Shown here piece by piece: positions 10,820 to 31,691 of a stretch of 32,037 nt of DNA. A model generated the notes under the pieces. The model was not told the DNA's origin and searched no databases. It worked only from the letters and a program-made list of their open reading frames with translations. The number at the start of each line of letters is the position of its first letter. The first letter of the stretch is position 1. Where the stretch lies: NCBI GenBank assembly GCA_023247475.1, contig JAHFGK010000004.1, positions 1 through 32,037 of the forward strand, read 5' to 3'. This DNA comes from Candidatus Omnitrophota bacterium. GTDB taxonomy: Bacteria > Omnitrophota > Gorgyraeia > Zapsychrales > JAHFGK01. The translations under genes were made by a program, and so were the position numbers.

Positions 10820-10828
10820 TGTCCGTCT

Positions 10829-10893
10829 CTCGTTGCTCGGGGCTCGTGACTCCTAAAAAAATAAACTGCAAGCGACGAGGGCCGAGTCCCGAG
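10829..10893. repeat. inverted array of degenerate heptamers, CTCGNNN arm and NNNCGAG arm
   Basis: CTCGTTG-CTCGGGG-CTCGTGA-CTCCTAA then (GCGACGAG)-GGCCGAG-TCCCGAG; CG at 10831, 10838, 10845 and 10876, 10883, 10890. Confidence 0.75.
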
Positions 10894-10896
10894 GCC

Positions 10897-15539: not shown

Positions 15540-17756
15540 ATGAAAATTAAAAATGCTCTTACCGAATATCATTTCCCTGAGGAAGTGATTGATATTTTGT
15601 CTCAATTTGGAATGACGGACTTCTATCCCCCCCAAACGAGTGCCATTAAAATTGGCTGCTTAAAGGGGGAAAATCTTTTAATGTCGGTCCCTACCGCCGC
15701 TGGAAAAACGCTCATCGCGGAATTGTGTATGCTCAAATCCATTGTGCACAACAATGGCCGGTGTTTATATATCGTTCCTTTGAAGGCCCTCGCGAGTGAA
15801 AAATACGAAGACTTTAAAAAAAAATATGCTCGGCTAAAAATCAAAGTGGGTTTAGCCACGGGGGACTTTGATGCCCCCAACAAATTTCTTAACCGTTTTC
15901 AAATATTAATCGCAACAGCCGAAAAAGTCGACTCCCTTCTTCGCACCCGGGCGCAATGGTTGATTCAATCTCTTTCTGTTGTTGTCTTAGATGAAATCCA
16001 TTTCATTAATGATGGAACTCGTGGACCTACTCTTGAAATTCTCACTGCCCGTATCAAACAGTTCAATCCGAAGGCACAAATCCTAGCCCTTAGTGCCACC
16101 GTCAAGAATGCTAAAGAAATGGCGGATTGGCTAAAAGCCAAATTGGTTTTAAGTGACTGGCGTCCAATTCCCTTAAGGGAAGGCGTTTATTTTAATGAGG
16201 TTATTAAATTTAACCAAGGGCCGGCTCGTTTAGTCAAGGAAGAACCCGACGATGATTTAAGCAAATTAACCTTGGATACCTTACGCGGGAAGGGACAAGT
16301 ACTCATCTTTGTCAATTCGCGTCGTTCGGCTCAAGCAACCAGTCGACAAATTTGTAAAAGTGTCACTTTAACTCTTAGTGAGGATGAGAAAAAAGAATTA
16401 GCCATGTTATCTAAAACCATTTCTGGGGCACATTCCAGTTCCACCAAAATGTGCCGCAAGTTAGCGGAAGTTATTCGGTTGGGTTGTGCCTTCCATCATG
16501 CCGGGTTAAAACCGAAACAACGTAAACTCATTGAAGATCATTTTAAAAAGAATTTAATTAAGGTCATCTGTTCTACTCCAACCCTTGCCGCGGGAGTAAA
16601 TTTACCAGCCCGACGGGCAATCATCCGCGACTGCAAACGATTTGAAGAAGGTTTAGGCGCCTCTTACATCCCGACCTCAGAATACAAACAATGCGCGGGC
16701 CGAGCTGGACGACCACAATATGATCAATACGGCGAAGCTGTCTTGATGGCAAAATCTCTTTCCGAATTAAGCGCGCTTTTTGATCGTTACATCAACGCCG
16801 ATCCCGAGCCCGTAATCTCTAAACTAGGAAACGAATCAGCCTTACGCATGCACGTCCTGGCCTCCATTGCCGGGGGATATGTCCATGACGTTAACAGTAT
16901 GTTCGAATTTATTGCGCACACCTTTTTAGCTCACCAGAAAAGAATTAACAATTTAATTGAATTAATTAGCCATATCTTTGGGTTCCTGCAAAGCGAAGGG
17001 TTTATTGAAAAAAGTGGTTTTAGCTACTACGCAACTGCCTTCGGTCAAAGCACCAGCCGGTTGTACATCGATCCGATGTCAAGTATTACTCTGAGGGATG
17101 GATTAAAAAAAATTACTGCTGGCAAATCGTTCTCGAGCATTGGATTGCTTCATCTTATCTGCTGTTGTCCCGACCATCCGCTTTTAAACGTCAATCAAAA
17201 AGACTTTGAAGATCTGGAAATGTTTACCGCCAATTATCGCGATGAACTTATTTTATCCCAAAAAGATCTTCCGATCTTAGAAGATTTCTTCGCTCAGGCC
17301 TCGATCATGAAAACCACGTGGATGTTATCTCAGTGGACCGAAGAAGAAAAGGAAGAGGTCATTTGTGATCAATTTGGAATAGGCCCGGGAGATATCTACC
17401 GACATACCGAGGCCACCCAATGGTTACTGCATGCGGCCTCTGTTTTTGCAGAACTTTTTCAGATGAAAAAATTAACCTTTGTCTTAGAAAATTTAAGACA
17501 ACGTGTTGAGTATGGAATCAAAGAAGAGCTATTGGAGCTGACGCAACTCAAAGGTATTGGTCGAATTCGTGCCCGCAACCTTTTTAGCAGCAACTTTAAA
17601 AAAATTTCCGATCTCAAATATTCTTCGGTCGATAAACTCAGTCAGGTTAACCAAATTGGTAAAACCCTGGCGAAAGATATTTTGTCACAAATCAATAACC
17701 ACTCATCGAAAAAATTAACAATATCTTTAGAAGATGACCTACTGGAATCGCTTTAA
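15540..17756 (+). CDS. Hel308-like superfamily 2 (Ski2-like) DNA helicase
   Basis: SVPTAAGKTLIAEL (motif I), DEIH (II), ALSATV (III), LIFVNSRRSAQAT (IV), FHHAGL, CSTPTLAAGVNLPARRAIIRDCKRFE (V), QCAGRAGRPQYDQYGEA (VI), C-terminal HhH LTQLKGIGRIRARNLF. Confidence 0.92.
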   Translation: MKIKNALTEYHFPEEVIDILSQFGMTDFYPPQTSAIKIGCLKGENLLMSVPTAAGKTLIAELCMLKSIVHNNGRCLYIVPLKALASEKYEDFKKKYARLKIKVGLATGDFDAPNKFLNRFQILIATAEKVDSLLRTRAQWLIQSLSVVVLDEIHFINDGTRGPTLEILTARIKQFNPKAQILALSATVKNAKEMADWLKAKLVLSDWRPIPLREGVYFNEVIKFNQGPARLVKEEPDDDLSKLTLDTLRGKGQVLIFVNSRRSAQATSRQICKSVTLTLSEDEKKELAMLSKTISGAHSSSTKMCRKLAEVIRLGCAFHHAGLKPKQRKLIEDHFKKNLIKVICSTPTLAAGVNLPARRAIIRDCKRFEEGLGASYIPTSEYKQCAGRAGRPQYDQYGEAVLMAKSLSELSALFDRYINADPEPVISKLGNESALRMHVLASIAGGYVHDVNSMFEFIAHTFLAHQKRINNLIELISHIFGFLQSEGFIEKSGFSYYATAFGQSTSRLYIDPMSSITLRDGLKKITAGKSFSSIGLLHLICCCPDHPLLNVNQKDFEDLEMFTANYRDELILSQKDLPILEDFFAQASIMKTTWMLSQWTEEEKEEVICDQFGIGPGDIYRHTEATQWLLHAASVFAELFQMKKLTFVLENLRQRVEYGIKEELLELTQLKGIGRIRARNLFSSNFKKISDLKYSSVDKLSQVNQIGKTLAKDILSQINNHSSKKLTISLEDDLLESL

Positions 17757-21373: not shown

Positions 21374-21922
21374 TTAATGTGGAATTTTGAGAATTACCCC
21401 TGCTTTAATCCGATTAGGATCGGGAATTTTATCTTTATTGACATCATAAATCTTATGCCATTTACTGTAAGAATTATAAAACTTCTTTGAAATTTTCTGC
21501 AAGGTATCATTTTTTTCGACGGTATACTCTTCAAACGACGTTTCCGTTGATTTTTCTGGCTGAACTTCCTCTAAGTTAATAGGCGGAATGGCTGGTCTGA
21601 ATACCGTTGGTTCCGGTGCTGGTGGAGGCGTATAACTAGAAGAAGGAGCTGCCGGAGGCATGGCTGGAATACTTAAATCCTCCGGAGGATTTTTAGTAAA
21701 TTCCATAACATATACGCGACGTGTTTTTTTCGTCTGGGTATTTTCTGCTGCTTTAGGTCCTCCGACCAAATAACCGGCATTCCCCATGATCTCTTGATCC
21801 ACTCTTAGCCTATCCTCAGAGTACGTTCGTACTGTGACCCCTCCTCCCCCGCTCGTTGTGCCACAGCCAGTGACAAATGTGATGAAAAAGATTAAACTCA
21901 CAGCTTTTAACAATTTAGGCAT
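21374..21922 (-). CDS. LysM-domain lipoprotein
   Basis: Lipobox FVTGC, Pro-rich linker, C-terminal LysM EEYTVEKNDTLQKISKKFYNSYSKWHKIYDVNKDKIPDPNRIKAGVILKIP. Confidence 0.88.
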   Translation of the reverse strand: MPKLLKAVSLIFFITFVTGCGTTSGGGGVTVRTYSEDRLRVDQEIMGNAGYLVGGPKAAENTQTKKTRRVYVMEFTKNPPEDLSIPAMPPAAPSSSYTPPPAPEPTVFRPAIPPINLEEVQPEKSTETSFEEYTVEKNDTLQKISKKFYNSYSKWHKIYDVNKDKIPDPNRIKAGVILKIPH

Positions 21923-23315
21923 CTTTGCCTCCTTTTTTAATAATCATTAAACCTAAATCTGTTATTTGTTGTTTATCCACTTGCGAAGGAGCATCTGTCA
22001 TTAAACAATTTCCTCTTTGAGTTTTAGGAAACGCAATAATATCGCGAATCGAATCTAATCCCGACAAAATGGCTCCCAAACGATCTATCCCATAAGCCAC
22101 ACCCGCATGAGGTGGAGCCCCATATTCGAAAGCTCTCAACAAAAATCCAAATCTTTTATCGGCCTGTTGTTTATTCAAGCCGATGGCCTCAAAAATTTTT
22201 TGTTGCATTTCCTTTTTATGGATACGCACTGAGCCACTGCCGATTTCATGGCCATTGAGAACCAAGTCATAGGAGCGGGCATAAATCTTTTCATATCCTC
22301 CCTTTTCCAGATAATGCAGATCCTCTTCCCTTATAGAAGTAAAGGGATGATGCTCACTTTCCCACCGTTTTTCCTCTTCATTATACTTAAACATTGGGAA
22401 ATCAACAACCCAAACAAATGCAAAATCATCTTTGTCTTTACGCAGGTCGGGTTTATCACTTTTATATTTTTTCATTGCCTCTTTATGCGTTATCCGAGGA
22501 AAAGGGATCGCAATATCAATTCCCTGGATTTGCTTAAAAATCTCTTTAAATAAGCGTTCCGTCAATGCAAAAATATCTTCCTCTGTGACAAAGGACATTT
22601 CCATATCTAGTTGGGTAAACTCTGGTTGACGATCCGCCCGGAGGTCTTCATCCCGAAAACATTTGACGATCTGAAAATATCGGTCGAGACCAGAAACCAT
22701 CAAGATTTGTTTAAACAACTGCGGCGATTGCGGCAACGCAAAAAATAATCCTGGATTCAATCGAGAAGGAACCAAAAAATCCCGTGCCCCTTCCGGGGTT
22801 GATTTTGTCAAGACAGGGGTTTCCACCTCGATAAATTGTTCTTGATACAAAAAATTTCTGATGACCACACACAGTTTGTGGCGTAACAATAGTGCCTTTT
22901 GCACCTTTTCGCGGCGAAGATCCAAATAGCGATAGGTTAATTTTACCTCTTCCGAGACCTCAACGCTATCATCAATTTCAAAAACAGGGACTAAACTCGA
23001 ATTCAGTATTTCTAAATCCTCCGCCACTAATTCAATCTCACCCGTAGCAATCTGAGGGTTAACATTTTTAGGTGGACGAACCGAGACTTTTCCGGTGATC
23101 TTAACGACAAATTCCGGACCTAATGCTTGAGCCAATTGATGAGCTTGCGGACATATCGATGGGACGAAGACCGCTTGTGTGAGACCGTAACGATCACGAA
23201 TATCAATAAACGTTAATTTTCCATGATCTCGTCTTCTATGAACCCAGCCACACAGGGTCACGCATTTATCTTTATACTCTTTTCTTAATTCACCGCACGT
23301 ATGGGATCTGAGCAT
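21915..23315 (-). CDS. aspS: aspartyl-tRNA synthetase, bacterial type, apparently lacking the GAD insertion domain
   Basis: OB fold (CVTLCGWVHRRRDHGKLTFIDIRDR), LPQSPQLFKQ, FRDEDLRADRQPEFTQLDMEMSF, GYGIDRL-type motif 3 (AYGIDRLGAILSG). 466 aa with SDKPDLR joined to FVWVVDFPMF by a few residues. Confidence 0.95.
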   Translation of the reverse strand: MLRSHTCGELRKEYKDKCVTLCGWVHRRRDHGKLTFIDIRDRYGLTQAVFVPSICPQAHQLAQALGPEFVVKITGKVSVRPPKNVNPQIATGEIELVAEDLEILNSSLVPVFEIDDSVEVSEEVKLTYRYLDLRREKVQKALLLRHKLCVVIRNFLYQEQFIEVETPVLTKSTPEGARDFLVPSRLNPGLFFALPQSPQLFKQILMVSGLDRYFQIVKCFRDEDLRADRQPEFTQLDMEMSFVTEEDIFALTERLFKEIFKQIQGIDIAIPFPRITHKEAMKKYKSDKPDLRKDKDDFAFVWVVDFPMFKYNEEEKRWESEHHPFTSIREEDLHYLEKGGYEKIYARSYDLVLNGHEIGSGSVRIHKKEMQQKIFEAIGLNKQQADKRFGFLLRAFEYGAPPHAGVAYGIDRLGAILSGLDSIRDIIAFPKTQRGNCLMTDAPSQVDKQQITDLGLMIIKKGGKDA

Positions 23316-25247: not shown

Positions 25248-28200
25248 CTAAATAGTAACTGAGAATCGATTTTCCCCCACCAATTCTCTTAGCTCCTCCA
25301 TTAAACCTTCGCTGGGCGAGACAAAAAGATCTTCGCCAACTAAAATTTGCACACTTTTGTAGGATTTTGTATTGAGCTGTAAATAGACTGGCGTTTTCCC
25401 GGGAAATTGGGACAATTTTTCCTTTAATTTTTCCAATCCCATTGAATTAACACCAGATAAATCAACTTTGATTGCTTTGATCGACTTATATAGTTCATCG
25501 ACATGCTTAATTTCACTCACCACTATTTTAGGCTCTTCTTCACGGAAACTAACTCTTCCTTTGAGGACCACGATCTCTCCTTCCTTTAGATAAGAGGCGA
25601 CACCGGAATAAGTGGAAGGAAATACAACGGCCTCAACCACACCATCCAAATCTTCCAAATTAAGGATAGCCATACGTTCATTTGTCTTACGGGTTGTAGT
25701 GAGTTTAACACTGTTAATTAAACCAACCATTTTAACTTCCTGACCATCCGTGACTTGGCTTAAATTCTTAGTAGTATAATCCGTAAACTCTTTGATCTCC
25801 ATCTTAAACTGATTCAAAGGGTGCCCACTCATATAAAAACCCAGTGTTTCGCGTTCATACGCTAAAACTTGAGGTTTTGGCCATTCCTTAGCCTGAGGAA
25901 TTTCCTCTTTCCCGACACTAAAACTTTCGCCGTCCCCACCCATATCAAAAAATGAAAACTGTCCCGCCGCCTTTTCTTTCTGATTTTGGGCTCCCCTTTC
26001 CAAAGCCTTTTCCGCAATAGCCATCAGTTGAGAACGATAAATTTTAAAACAATCAAGGGCGCCACATTTAATAAGACTTTCAATAACCTTCCGATTAACC
26101 AACCTTAAATCAACCCGTTCACAAAAATCGTAGATTGATTTATAAGAGCCACTAGTATTTCTGTTATTCACAATCGATTCGATAGCTGTTTGCCCAACAT
26201 TCTTAACCGCTAGAAATCCAAAGCGAATGGCTTTTGCATCAATTACACTAAAATTACTAAAACTTTCATTAATATCCGGAGGTAAAATTCCGATCCCCAT
26301 CTCCTCCGCTTCTCGGACATATTCGACAATTTTATCTGTATTATCGCGCTCACTGGTGAGTAGGGCACTCATAAATTCAACGGAAAAGTTCGCTTTTAAA
26401 TAAGCGGTTTGATATGAGATAAGTGCATAAGCTGCCGAATGACTACGGTTAAAACCATATCCGGAAAAATAATCAATAAGATCAAATAATTTGTTGGCCT
26501 GCTCCTCTCTAATCTTATTAGTTTTGAAACACCCTTCCACAAAATCTTTCCGTATCTGATCCATAACCTCAGGAATTTTTTTACTCATGGCGCGCCTTAG
26601 ATGATCAGCTTGCGTCATGGTAAAACCCGCTAAGACACTCGCCATCTGCATGACTTGTTCTTGGTAAACGATAATCCCGTACGTAGACTTTAAAACTAGT
26701 TCCAGTTTAGGATGATCATATCTAACGGGGACTTCTCCTCGTTTACGCTTAATGAAATCTTCCAGCATCCCACTTCCCATGGGCCCAGGTCGATAAAGCG
26801 CTAAAATAGAGATTAAATCCTCAAATTGGGAAGGTCTCGACTTTTTCAGAAGTTCTCGCATCCCCGCGCTTTCTAGTTGAAATATCCCAAAACTACTGGC
26901 TTGCCCTAGGAGTTCGTATGTCTTAGAATCATCTAAAGGAATTTTATCAATATCAATCTCAACGCCTCTCGTTTTCTTGGTGAGCTTAACCGTATGATCG
27001 ATAACCGTCAGCGTCCTCAATCCTAAAAAGTCCATCTTTAAAAGACCAATTTTCGCAATTCCATCCATCGAATAACCAGTCGTGACCTGATCATCACTCG
27101 TCTTAAAAAGAGGAACGTATTCGGTTAATGGTTTATCCGAAATAACCACCCCCGCGGCATGAATGGAGGCGTGACGGTTAAGTCCTTCTAAAACTTGGGC
27201 GGTGTTAATGATTTCCGCCGCTACCTTATCTTCTTGATACAATTTACTTAATTGGGGTTCAACGGTCAGAGCGGTTTTAAGGGTCATCCCTACTTCCGCC
27301 GGAATAAGCTTAGCAATTTTGTCTACATCCGTATACGAAACCCCCATGACCCGACCGACATCCCGCACCGCAGCCCGAGCCTGCATGGTTCCAAACGTTA
27401 TAATCTGCGCCACATTATCTTTGCCATATTTTTTCGTTACATAATTGATAACTTCTCCTCGACGTTCAAAACAAAAATCGATATCGATATCCGGCATCCC
27501 TAAACGCTCCGGATTAAGAAAACGTTCAAATAAAAGTCCATATTTGATAGGATCCAAATTCGTTATACCCAATAAATAACTAACAAGGCTTCCCGCCGCT
27601 GATCCCCGTCCCGGTCCTACCGGAATCCCTTTTTGTTTGGCGTAATGGATAAAGTCCCAGACGATAAGAAAATAACTGACAAATTCCATTTTTTTGATGA
27701 CGGACAATTCATATTGAAGGCGTTCTTCTATTTCTTTCGTGGCACGGCCATAACGTTGTTGTATTCCTTTTAAACATAGCTCTCTCAAAAATTCCTCTTT
27801 TGTTTTTTCAGGAGGTGGATCATAGTTAGGAAGGTGATATTCATCAAACCGTAATTCCAAGTTACATTTTTCGGCAATCTCAATGGTGCTTTGCAGAGCT
27901 TCAGGAATCCAAGCAAATTCCTTTTTCATTTCTTCTGGATCCTTAAAATAGAACTGATCGGTTTTTAAGCGCAGGCGGTTGGGGTCATTAAGAACCGTCT
28001 GTGTCTGAATGCACAAAAGCGCCTCATGTGCCATAAATTGGGACTGCTCTAAATAATGCACATCATTGGTGACGACCAAGGGGATATTTAAATCTTTGGA
28101 TATTTTTATAAGCCCTTCATTAGCACTTTTTTGTTCCGGAATCCCATGCTCCATCAATTCGAGATAAAAATTACCTTTCCCAAAAATTTGCTGATATTCA

Positions 28201-28682
28201 TCGGCTGTTTTCAAAGCGCTGCTGTAATTTCCTTCCCGCAGTTTGGAGGCAATTTCTCCTCGCAAACAAGCAGAAGTACATAACAACCCTTCGGAAAGCT
28301 GAGATAAAATCTCTTTATCCATCCGGGGTTTATAGTAAAATCCTTCTAAATAGCCCGCCGAAACGAGCTTCATCAGATTACTGTAACCCCTTTCATCTTT
28401 GGCAAACAAGACAATATGGGAAGTTGCTCCTTGACGCGGGCTTTTATCCAATCGGCTGGATGGAGCAAGGTACGCCTCACAACCAATAATGGGTTTGACT
28501 CCCATCTTGATACATGTTTGATAAAAATCAATAGCCCCAAATAGGTTGCCGTGATCGGTCATCCCCAAGGCGGGCATTTTATAATCGGCGGCTTTTTTGA
28601 CTAATTCTTTAACTCGACAGGCACCATCGAGGAGGCTGAATTGGGTGTGGACATGCAGATGAACAAAATCGGAATGATACAT
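25248..28682 (-). CDS. dnaE: DNA polymerase III subunit alpha
   Basis: PHP [71 protein letters not shown], C-terminal HhH and OB regions. Confidence 0.97.
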   Translation of the reverse strand: [1144 protein letters not shown]

Positions 28683-28696
28683 ATTAAATCTGGATA

Positions 28697-28790
28697 TCGT
28701 CGTTCGGGGTTCGGGGTTCGTGAATTATTGCTCGAAGAACGAATTTGTTATTTCGAAGACGAATGACGATATCCGAATCCCGATCCCCGG
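28697..28790. repeat. inverted array of degenerate heptamers, TTCGGGG-type arm and CCGAATC-type arm
   Basis: CG at 28698, 28705, 28712, 28719, 28733, 28740, 28754, then after a one-base phase shift 28760, 28767, 28774, 28781, 28788; fills the guaA/dnaE gap. Confidence 0.75.
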
Positions 28791-28794
28791 TCAT

Positions 28795-30516
28795 CTATTC
28801 CCATTCAATCGTTGCCGGCGGTTTAGAGCTAACATCATAAACGACACGATTAACACCGGGGACTTCATTGATAATGCGGTTGGCTATTTTCCCCAAAAGA
28901 TCATAGGGTAATTGGACCCAATCTGCGGTCATGCCGTCAATACTGCTGACGCAACGGATCGCAATAACATGCTCGTAAGTCCTTTGATCACCCATCACAC
29001 CGACCGTTTTAACGGGAAGAAGAACCGCGAAGGATTGCCACACTTGATTGTAAAGTCCGGCCTTTTTAACTTCCTCTAAAACACGTTCATCCGCCTCACG
29101 CAAAATATCCAATCGTTCTTTAGTGACTTCACCCATAATACGAATCCCTAAGCCTGGACCTGGGAAGGGTTGTCGGTTCAAAATAATATCCGGTGATCCA
29201 AGATGTTTCCCAATGACTCGCACTTCATCCTTAAACAATTCTCGCAAGGGTTCAATCAAGTGTAGTCTCAAACTTTTCGGTAACCCTCCCACATTATGAT
29301 GGCTCTTGATCGTAGCAGAAGGCCCTCCCAAAGGTGAAATGGATTCAATGACATCAGGATAAAGTGTCCCTTGCGCTAGAAATTCGACATTACTAATCTT
29401 CTTCGCTGCCTCCTGAAAAACTTTTACAAATTCTTCGCCAATAATCTTTCGTTTGAGTTCCGGATCCGTCACATTTTTTAAGCGTTGCAAGAATCGGTTG
29501 GAGGCATCAATACATTTTAAATTGATTTTTAAATTTTCTTGAAATGTTTTTTGGACGGTAGCCACCTCATTTTTCCGTAACAGTCCATTATCGACGAAGA
29601 TACAATGCAACCGTTTACCGACCGCCTGATGAATAAGCATGGCCGTGACGGTCGAATCAACGCCACCACTTAATCCCAATACCACGCGTTTATTGCCGAT
29701 GGTTTCTTTAATGTCTTTAATAGCGGCATTGATGAATTTATCCATCGTCCAGCGAGGAAGACATCCGCAAATCTGGTAAGCAAAATTAAGAAGGATTTGA
29801 CTCCCTCGTTGCGTGTGCACCACTTCCGGATGAAATTGAACTCCATAGATTTTCTTAGCGCGATTAGCGATAGCCGCCACCGGCGCACTCAAGGTGTGGG
29901 CAAGCCGTATAAATCCCGCTGGGATTTTCTTAATCTCATCGGAGTGACTCATCCAGCAGGTGAGATTACTGGGCAAATTCACGAAAAGATCGCTGTTGCT
30001 ATCGACAAATAATTCCGTACGACCAAATTCCCGTTCTTTGCTTCGCTCAACTTTGCCACCAAACATCTCGGTAATGGCTTGCATCCCATAGCAAATTCCT
30101 AAAATAGGTAAACCTAATTTAAAAATCTCTTGTCTCGGTAAAGGCGCGCTCTCGTCATAAACACTTAAAGGCCCTCCCGAAAGGACAAGGCCTTTCGGAC
30201 TAACTTTTTTGATTTCCTCAATCGAGATGTTATAGGGGACAATTTGACTGAAAACTTTATTTTCCCGAATCCGTCGGGCAATCAGTTGCGTATACTGCGA
30301 TCCAAAATCAAGGACTAAAATAATATCTTTATTGCGAGGTTTACTGATTTTTTCGGGTAGGGATAATCGACGGTGGGGGGTTTGACGCCACGTTCGTTTT
30401 CTTGAAATTTTTTTAGCGAAAATTCTTCTCCTTTTAGCCGTGATTCTTTTCCTTTTAGTCGAGATTCTTTTTTTCTTGGGACTGACTTTTTTTCTGCGAG
30501 CGCTTTTTTTGGTCAT
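28795..30516 (-). CDS. guaA: GMP synthase (glutamine-hydrolysing) with basic N-terminal extension
   Basis: [75 protein letters not shown]; preceded by ~65 aa Arg/Lys-rich extension. Confidence 0.96.
30422..30484. repeat. 21-nt in-frame tandem repeat encoding the GuaA basic tail
   Basis: Plus-strand ATTCTTNTCCTTTTAGNC-like units beginning at 30422, 30443, 30464; protein [21 protein letters not shown]. Confidence 0.75.
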
Positions 30517-30530
30517 ATTTTTTTCCTGAT

Positions 30531-31691
30531 TTATTTCCCCATACCAACCCGTTGCCCCACTTGGAAAACTTTTCCTTCAGTTTGTATGGAGGAAGCAATG
30601 ATGATTTCGACATCATGCATCTCTTTAGTGTTGGAAGCACCTAGGGAACCCATGGAAGTTTTTAAAGCTCCGACAAGATTCTGCGAACCGTCATCAACTT
30701 TCGCCGGACCAAACAAGATCTCTTGGAGGGTGCCGCTGGTGCCCACCTGAATTCTCGTTCCTCGGGGGAGATTCGCATGAGAAGTCGCCATTCCCCAGTG
30801 AAACCCACGGCCGGGTGCTTCTTCAGCTCGAGCAAACGCCGAGCCCACCATCACTGCATCCGCTCCTGCGGCTAAGGCTTTACAAATCTCACCGCCAATC
30901 CGCATTCCGCCATCGGTAATAATAGGAATATATTTGCCCTTTCGCTTAAAAAAATAATCGCGTGCTGCTGCGGTGTCAACCGTGGAGCTAATCTGTGGAA
31001 TACCAATACCTAAAACGCCCCGCGTGGTACATGCCGCTCCGGGGCCTATCCCGACTAAAATACCGGAAGCGCCGATCTCCATCAATTCTAAGGCCACGTC
31101 GTAAGTAACACAATTACCAAAAATCACGGGGATTTTCAATGAGCTACAAAATTTGGCTAGATCTAGTATCTTATATTCCGTGGAAATATGTCTAACCGTG
31201 GCCACCGTGGACTGGACAACAAAAATATCACAACCTGCTTCTTGAGCAATCTCGGCGAACTTTTGGGCATTTTGGGGAATACAGCTTACCACGGCAGGAA
31301 CTTTGGCCGCTTTAATTTCTTTAATTCTTTTGGCAATAAGCTTTTCTTTAACAGGGTTCAGATACACACTCTGAACTAATTTAGTAGCTTCTTGAGGGCT
31401 AGCACTTGCGATTTGCTTTAAGACTTCATCCGGATTTTCATACCGTGTTTGAATACCATCCAGATTAAGGACAGCAATTCCGCCAAACTTACCCATGGCA
31501 ATCGCAAACTTAACATCCACAACCCCATCCATGGCAGCGGCTAAGATAGGGACTTGAAATTTCTTACCCGCAATGGTCCAGCTGGTGTCCACTTCATTAG
31601 GATTAACGGTGACCATGCCTGGGACGAGGGCGACTTCATCAAAACCATAACAACGTCTTGCTCGCCGGCCTATCCCAATCCATTCCGCCAT
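30531..31691 (-). CDS. GuaB3 family IMP dehydrogenase/GMP reductase-like protein without CBS domains
   Basis: 386 aa; [54 protein letters not shown] (active-site Cys), [31 protein letters not shown]; no room for a CBS insert. Confidence 0.88.

Follow-up and report, generated by a model that had tools for sequence, protein, structure and literature searches.

Tandem heptanucleotide arrays in other bacteria

Tandem repeats with a unit of seven or eight nucleotides have been described between the genes of several bacteria, and the closest precedent for the elements considered here comes from Geobacter metallireducens. The main text of the 2009 account (PMC2700814) describes paired tandem octa- or heptanucleotide 'global regulator binding sites' of classes 1–3, mostly opposite-strand pairs with variable spacing, with 8–24 pairs per family and several families per genome; these were taken as putative IHF/HU sites, a proposal only, and the proBA gap carries a different repeat in the sister species G. 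sulfurreducens. The Omnitrophota elements share with these sites the tandem 7–8-nt units, the inverted pairs, the dispersal and the coexistence of several families in one genome. There is likeness in sequence as well: class 3 (MTYCTGA, reverse complement TCAGRAK) is the same heptamer as the Omnitrophota GAAGTCA family, while class 1 (GTTGCTYN; NRAGCAAC as its reverse complement) comes close to the AGTAACNR family found in one relative, genome G030. The two differ in phylum; the main text on Geobacter does not report TCG/CTCG heptads, and it contains no empty site, family switching or analysis of conservation at single loci, all of which are given for Omnitrophota below. A preliminary description of the present locus did not recognise its inverted layout with variable spacer bases; the Geobacter pairs, as that main text presents them, are a precedent, and the Omnitrophota elements are a variant of a poorly described kind.

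Other heptamer repeats resemble the elements in fewer respects. The STRR heptanucleotide repeats of cyanobacteria and the GGGNATC repeats of Xanthomonas and Nostoc are tandem, intergenic, preferably placed between aligned genes and numerous in each genome; they are direct arrays of a single unit, for which a G-quadruplex has been proposed, and the abstract and introduction of the source describe no inverted partner array (PMC4692102), whereas the Omnitrophota elements have degenerate units in two inverted halves. The TAACTGA repeats of Beggiatoaceae are likewise intergenic heptamers, found just upstream of start codons, but with one fixed unit (PMC4679880).

REPIN/REP sequences are short dispersed intergenic palindromes with two inverted halves; they occur also as singletons, and their families vary by species. 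Dispersed inverted pairs of this type are found here too, as a TCG family in five of the six species of genus g10 and, in the genome of the window itself, at several places with TCG/CTCG heptads; unlike REPINs, the Omnitrophota arms are degenerate tandem heptads and generally have no flanking RAYT gene. The likeness to MITEs consists in an empty site in a relative (the hemE junction of genome G262, below). Finally, the heptad operators and parS of the omega2 system (plasmid pSM19035) consist of 7-bp units set end to end, some direct and some inverted, with one fixed unit and one plasmid protein; the Omnitrophota units are many and vary widely, with no known protein.

The guaA-dnaE gap

The window, that is, the whole 32,037-nt stretch of DNA analysed here, carries on its minus strand guaA (GMP synthase; 28795..30516, NF000848) and, downstream of it, dnaE (DNA polymerase III alpha subunit; 25248..28682, NF005298), whose highest-identity relatives are mostly from Candidatus Omnitrophota MAGs, which places the window in that phylum. 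The gap between them, as set by the ORF limits and gene names (28683..28794, 112 nt), reads on the transcribed (minus) strand

ATGACCGGGGATCGGGATTCGGATATCGTCATTCGTCTTCGAAATAACAAATTCGTTCTTCGAGCAATAATTCACGAACCCCGAACCCCGAACGACGATATCCAGATTTAAT

and is nearly filled by the element. In the direction of the genes, a 5' arm (28754..28789) adjoins the guaA stop codon and is built on a TCG lattice of heptads (TCGGGAT, TCGGATA, TCGTCAT, then TCG...); an AT-rich inner segment (28722..28753) holds a remnant of the TCG/CGA lattice, shifted in phase; a 3' arm (28692..28721) of CGAACCC, CGAACCC, CGAACGA and CGATATC heptads ends 9 nt from the dnaE start codon. Counted along the minus strand of the gap, TCG starts at positions 12, 19, 26 and 33 and, with the phase shifted by one base, at 39, 53 and 60; CGA starts at 40, 61, 75, 82, 89 and 96.

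Identity at lag 7 is 0.486; at lag 14 it is 0.39, and at all remaining lags through 13 it lies within 0.16–0.35. In 2000 dinucleotide shuffles the lag-7 value was never reached (p<0.0005), and for the top-scoring lag-7 segment the shuffle test gives p=0.0005. A 15-nt inverted repeat (28692–28706 against 28760–28774) is 93% complementary (p=0.003). The preliminary description thus had the sequence and its place between guaA and dnaE right, as it did the 7-nt CG lattice with a one-base shift between halves, visible in the TCG and CGA starts, and the rough complementarity of the arms. Its view that the array fills nearly the whole gap also stands; its starting point, 28697, does not, the element beginning slightly earlier, at 28692.

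No Rfam covariance model matched the window at gathering score; no Rho-independent terminator (a GC-rich stem followed by a U run) was detected on either strand of 28600–28850, and the element has no U-tract. The earlier reading of the array as neither a canonical terminator nor a simple microsatellite is borne out.

A second heptad element of the same make (10820..10896, minus strand) fills the gap between two co-directional ORFs, with units CTCGGGA, CTCGGCC, CTCGTCG and onward to GAGTCAC, GAGCCCC, GAGCAAC and GAGAGAC (lag-7 p<0.001; inverted repeat p=0.02). Enrichment at lag 7 elsewhere in the genome had been put forward as a test, and arrays are indeed present at other places: in 0.2 Mb sampled from the window's genome, lag 7 gives the most local segments of any lag, the counts being small. 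The pattern YTCGNNNYTCGNNNYTCG has nine matches in the whole genome against three for its reversed control; some of the nine overlap one another or fall inside predicted ORFs, so that the true further copies are a handful. The mean lag-7 identity of the entire intergenic sequence from three genomes shows no clear peak, because the arrays are a minority of that sequence; a score for local segments is therefore needed.

The same gap in relatives

An array at lag 7 or lag 8 (segment score at least 10) lies in the guaA-dnaE gap of 12 of the 29 relatives whose gap is at least 50 nt, window included; shuffles lead one to expect 0.6. Other co-directional gaps in the sampled genomes outside G030 carry one in 14 cases of 230 (Fisher p=1e-6 against guaA-dnaE), a contrast rather than a matched test, with within-operon gaps included and the genomes partly overlapping. 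G030 has an array pair in this gap too. The unit sequences are mostly unlike between relatives. Conservation or copy-number variation among relatives, which the preliminary description had named as a further test, is found in both forms: arrays at the same gap, and exact 7-nt unit differences between close species.

An element class across Omnitrophota

Local lag-k segments were scored in stretches of several genomes. In 0.5 Mb of G030 the intergenic segments number 48 at lag 7 and 35 at lag 8, with 0–4 at the other basic lags; in 0.32 Mb of genome G009 there are 21 at lag 7, and 0–2 at each of lags 4–6 and 9–13. A four-unit YTCG heptad pattern occurs in 99 of 237 genomes of the phylum, with up to 69 matches per genome; the reversed pattern is not a clean background for this count, since in many genomes it also marks arrays of another family. 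The GAAGTNN family is found in 16 of the 237, and further families in G030 have the units GTATGTN, AGTAACNN, GGTTNNT and GTCACAAN. A single genome can combine numerous unrelated unit sequences with both periods, 7 and 8; members of one family turn up at many loci of a genome, and the dispersed families have 12–50 similarity matches per genome. A dispersed class of elements in Omnitrophota very probably exists, and the window array is probably one copy of this phylum-wide class of small palindromes, in which each arm is a tandem run of degenerate heptads, or in some cases octads, and the two runs face each other as inverted halves. The literature on Omnitrophota, with thin coverage of subscription papers, yielded no account of such arrays.

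Three observations lie beside this survey. Palindromes of the GTAGGGGCGA...TCGCCCCTAC type are another dispersed repeat, which co-occupies gaps with heptad arrays or replaces them (L194:5970-6297 and L195:1497-1725 in G030; the L036 gap). In genome G151, a GAAGTCA heptad array (L257:1501-1531) apparently lies within an ORF resembling diaminopimelate epimerase; its translation there would be a repeated peptide, EVRSQKS. An exact GAAGTCA array is present in 21 putative viral contigs (L399–L419), against four for a reversed pattern, in a scan that used one heptad pattern and pooled viral, prophage and host sequence.

Position relative to genes

With gene calls filtered by coding potential in G009 and G030, elements in co-directional gaps begin a median of 5 nt past the upstream stop codon in both, and end a median of 19 nt (G009) or 24 nt (G030) before the next start. 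They occupy 27–28% of the co-directional gaps of 40–600 nt in these two genomes, the richest of the relatives. There is no co-directional excess: arrays are about equally common in convergent and divergent gaps (7/32, p=0.54, a sample of 32 gaps only), and convergent gaps show no excess of them. Inside the array gaps of G030 the motif CGATTG runs with transcription 19 times and against it never, a count in which gene direction and replication direction are not separated.

An empty site, family exchange and unit changes in one genus

The history of single loci can be followed in genus g10. Of its six genomes, five have dozens of similarity matches to a heptad hairpin family with the unit TCGT(AT/CG)Y; in G262 none was detected. 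At the hemE junction, four of the species have a 75-nt element between stop and start; in G262, hemE and the protoporphyrinogen oxidase gene overlap and there is no element, an empty site. Loss in G262 is the alternative polarity. No target-site duplication is evident at this one site, where the sequences compared are about 73% identical.

Two operon junctions show one family in the place of another. Between argB and argD, a TCG element stands in G261, G042, G009 and G263, a CCAG/CTGG element at the same place in G264, and a gap without array in G262. Between guaA and dnaE, G042 has a TCG element (CTCGTAT) and G009 a GAAGTAA element, the flanking genes of these two being 86–87% identical; G263 has a mosaic array in which TCG heptads are combined with GTGAAGC heptads, and the G262 gap holds no element.

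Some orthologous copies differ by exactly 7 nt, a unit gained or lost; in two species of genus g25 the left arm is shorter in one. The order of units at a given locus is largely kept between species, and the spacer bases, which the preliminary description called variable, do vary without being free noise. In pairwise comparisons the elements diverge by 12% and third codon positions by 29%, a contrast that overstates the constraint, the pairs being non-independent and the loci having been found through retention of the array in both species. The window copy presumably shares the history of the copies followed in these relatives.

Folding and pairing of the arms

The window hairpin is clear as an inverted repeat and unexceptional as a fold: the predicted RNA has z of about -1.1 and -1.2, no better than shuffles. 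In relatives, guaA-dnaE gaps with arrays have a mean z of -4.2, and array-free gaps, several of them with other palindromes, a mean of -3.4. Some G030 elements have loops of up to 360 nt, and a left arm in that genome resembles the right arms of other elements in its family as closely as it does its own partner (p about 0.88).

Compensatory changes were found at none of 26 pairs in four hemE orthologues, several pairs being broken in one species, and at one of 12 pairs in 16 dispersed copies; invariant core pairs say nothing of covariation either way. Covariation as proof of selection on a hairpin thus appeared in no test. This leaves two readings: the mismatches that recur with the period are tolerated, or the arms are recognised as double-stranded DNA.

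What the elements may do

The likeliest way to understand the placement, the empty site and the exchange of families is to suppose that the elements work as RNA hairpins between cistrons. Elements would be gained between adjacent genes of an operon, occupying the space from the stop codon to the Shine-Dalgarno region, and thereafter be inherited vertically with loss or gain of whole 7-nt units; the gap would be transcribed, and imperfect hairpins in the polycistronic mRNA would separate neighbouring cistrons, through uncoupling of translation, or by setting RNA processing, stability or partial termination. The inverted periodic layout would then count for more than the exact sequence. The replacement of families at guaA-dnaE and argB-argD is the strongest argument for a role of layout: because sister species swap families at two junctions, such a role, most simply that of an intercistronic RNA hairpin, is favoured over one sequence-specific protein. 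Placement between the stop codon and the next start, the hemE empty site, the mean z of the array gaps and the 19:0 orientation of the G030 motif agree with the hairpin; the arms that pair with non-cognate partners as well as with their own, the lack of compensatory changes, the window copy's ordinary fold, the array-free gaps that fold nearly as well, the long loops, the missing U-tract and the absence of co-directional excess speak against it. On balance, a function as hairpins between cistrons is held tentatively, at somewhat less than an even chance. A model in which the elements are terminators and nothing more was rejected: the window has no U-tract, the gaps of relatives give few and weak stem-plus-T matches, and convergent gaps show no excess.

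A broader statement is that the class is defined by geometry only: facing arrays with a period of 7 or 8 bases and interchangeable sequence, unrelated families swapping at the same operon junctions across the phylum, and selection acting on the layout rather than on sequence or a known protein. In this general form the proposal is doubtful. If layout is selected, the elements would give a large uncultured phylum a general means of marking boundaries within operons that does not depend on sequence, and could account for the excess of heptanucleotide repeats in many bacterial genomes. Natural experiments, in which the same junction carries a different array or none, make the function of heptamer repeats directly testable.

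A second perspective, and a serious rival to the intercistronic hairpin, sees repeats that favour particular insertion sites: selfish or neutral dispersed sequences, REPIN- or MITE-like, mobilised in trans, tolerated only between genes and without function for the host. Dispersed families with their dozens of matches, the empty site at hemE and the variation of family content among sister species speak for it, and Y1/RAYT transposase genes (PF01797) are present in 11 of 11 array-rich genomes and two of five poor ones (p=0.018). Yet the 30 PF01797 loci generally lack arrays alongside: a strong array lies within about 0.5 kb of one and about 0.7 kb of another, both in array-rich G009, and the survey pointed to no mobilising enzyme. 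RAYT mobilisation, with a weak correlation of presence and genes without flanking arrays, was set aside. The single empty site shows no evident target-site duplication, the strong bias to one orthologous gap and the slow divergence suggest retention, and the layout stays constant while families change. Selfish dispersal as the full account is unlikely, if by no means negligible.

A third perspective places the function in the DNA. Each heptad would bind a small protein that polymerises along the duplex, and the facing arrays would enable looping or organise the nucleoid, on the model of the omega2 ribbon-helix-helix heptads or of the IHF/HU sites proposed for Geobacter. The lack of covariation is what recognition of each arm as double-stranded DNA would lead one to expect; units combine a constant core with a limited set of variable triplets, pairs share polarity, and arrays occur in divergent gaps too. 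A single sequence-specific protein, however, would not allow many unrelated units, periods of 7 and 8 in one genome, or the replacement of families at the same site. Operator-like DNA, in either the omega2 or the IHF/HU form, is judged improbable.

Local replication slippage, by which arrays would form and degrade where they stand, their facing half being copied from a hairpin template, fits the exact 7-nt gains and losses, the lag-14 signal and the mosaic in G263; but the same families at many loci of a genome require dispersal, and the choice of gap and the conserved order of units across species go unexplained. It probably acts on existing elements; as sole cause it is very unlikely. Chance, a degenerate GC-rich gap merely looking periodic, might appeal to the degeneracy of the window copy and the few copies in 0.2 Mb of its own genome, but has next to no likelihood given the shuffle test in the window and is refuted by the relatives that carry this architecture in their guaA-dnaE gaps.

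Other features of the window

The neighbouring genes have features of their own. GuaA begins with a 65-residue Lys/Arg-rich extension ahead of the conserved domain (30322–30516); a 21-nt repeat (three times seven), present about three times at 30411–30471, encodes part of it. The gene upstream of guaA (30531–31691) is not a canonical guaB: its product is a GuaB3-type protein related to IMP dehydrogenase (TIGR01304). An aspartyl-tRNA synthetase (21915–23315) is short, at 466 aa, and its match to the bacterial model of 590 positions falls into two stretches; it seems that an internal domain is missing or that the gene is broken. A Hel308-like, archaeal-type DNA helicase (15540–17756) is the sole long predicted plus-strand gene amid minus-strand genes.
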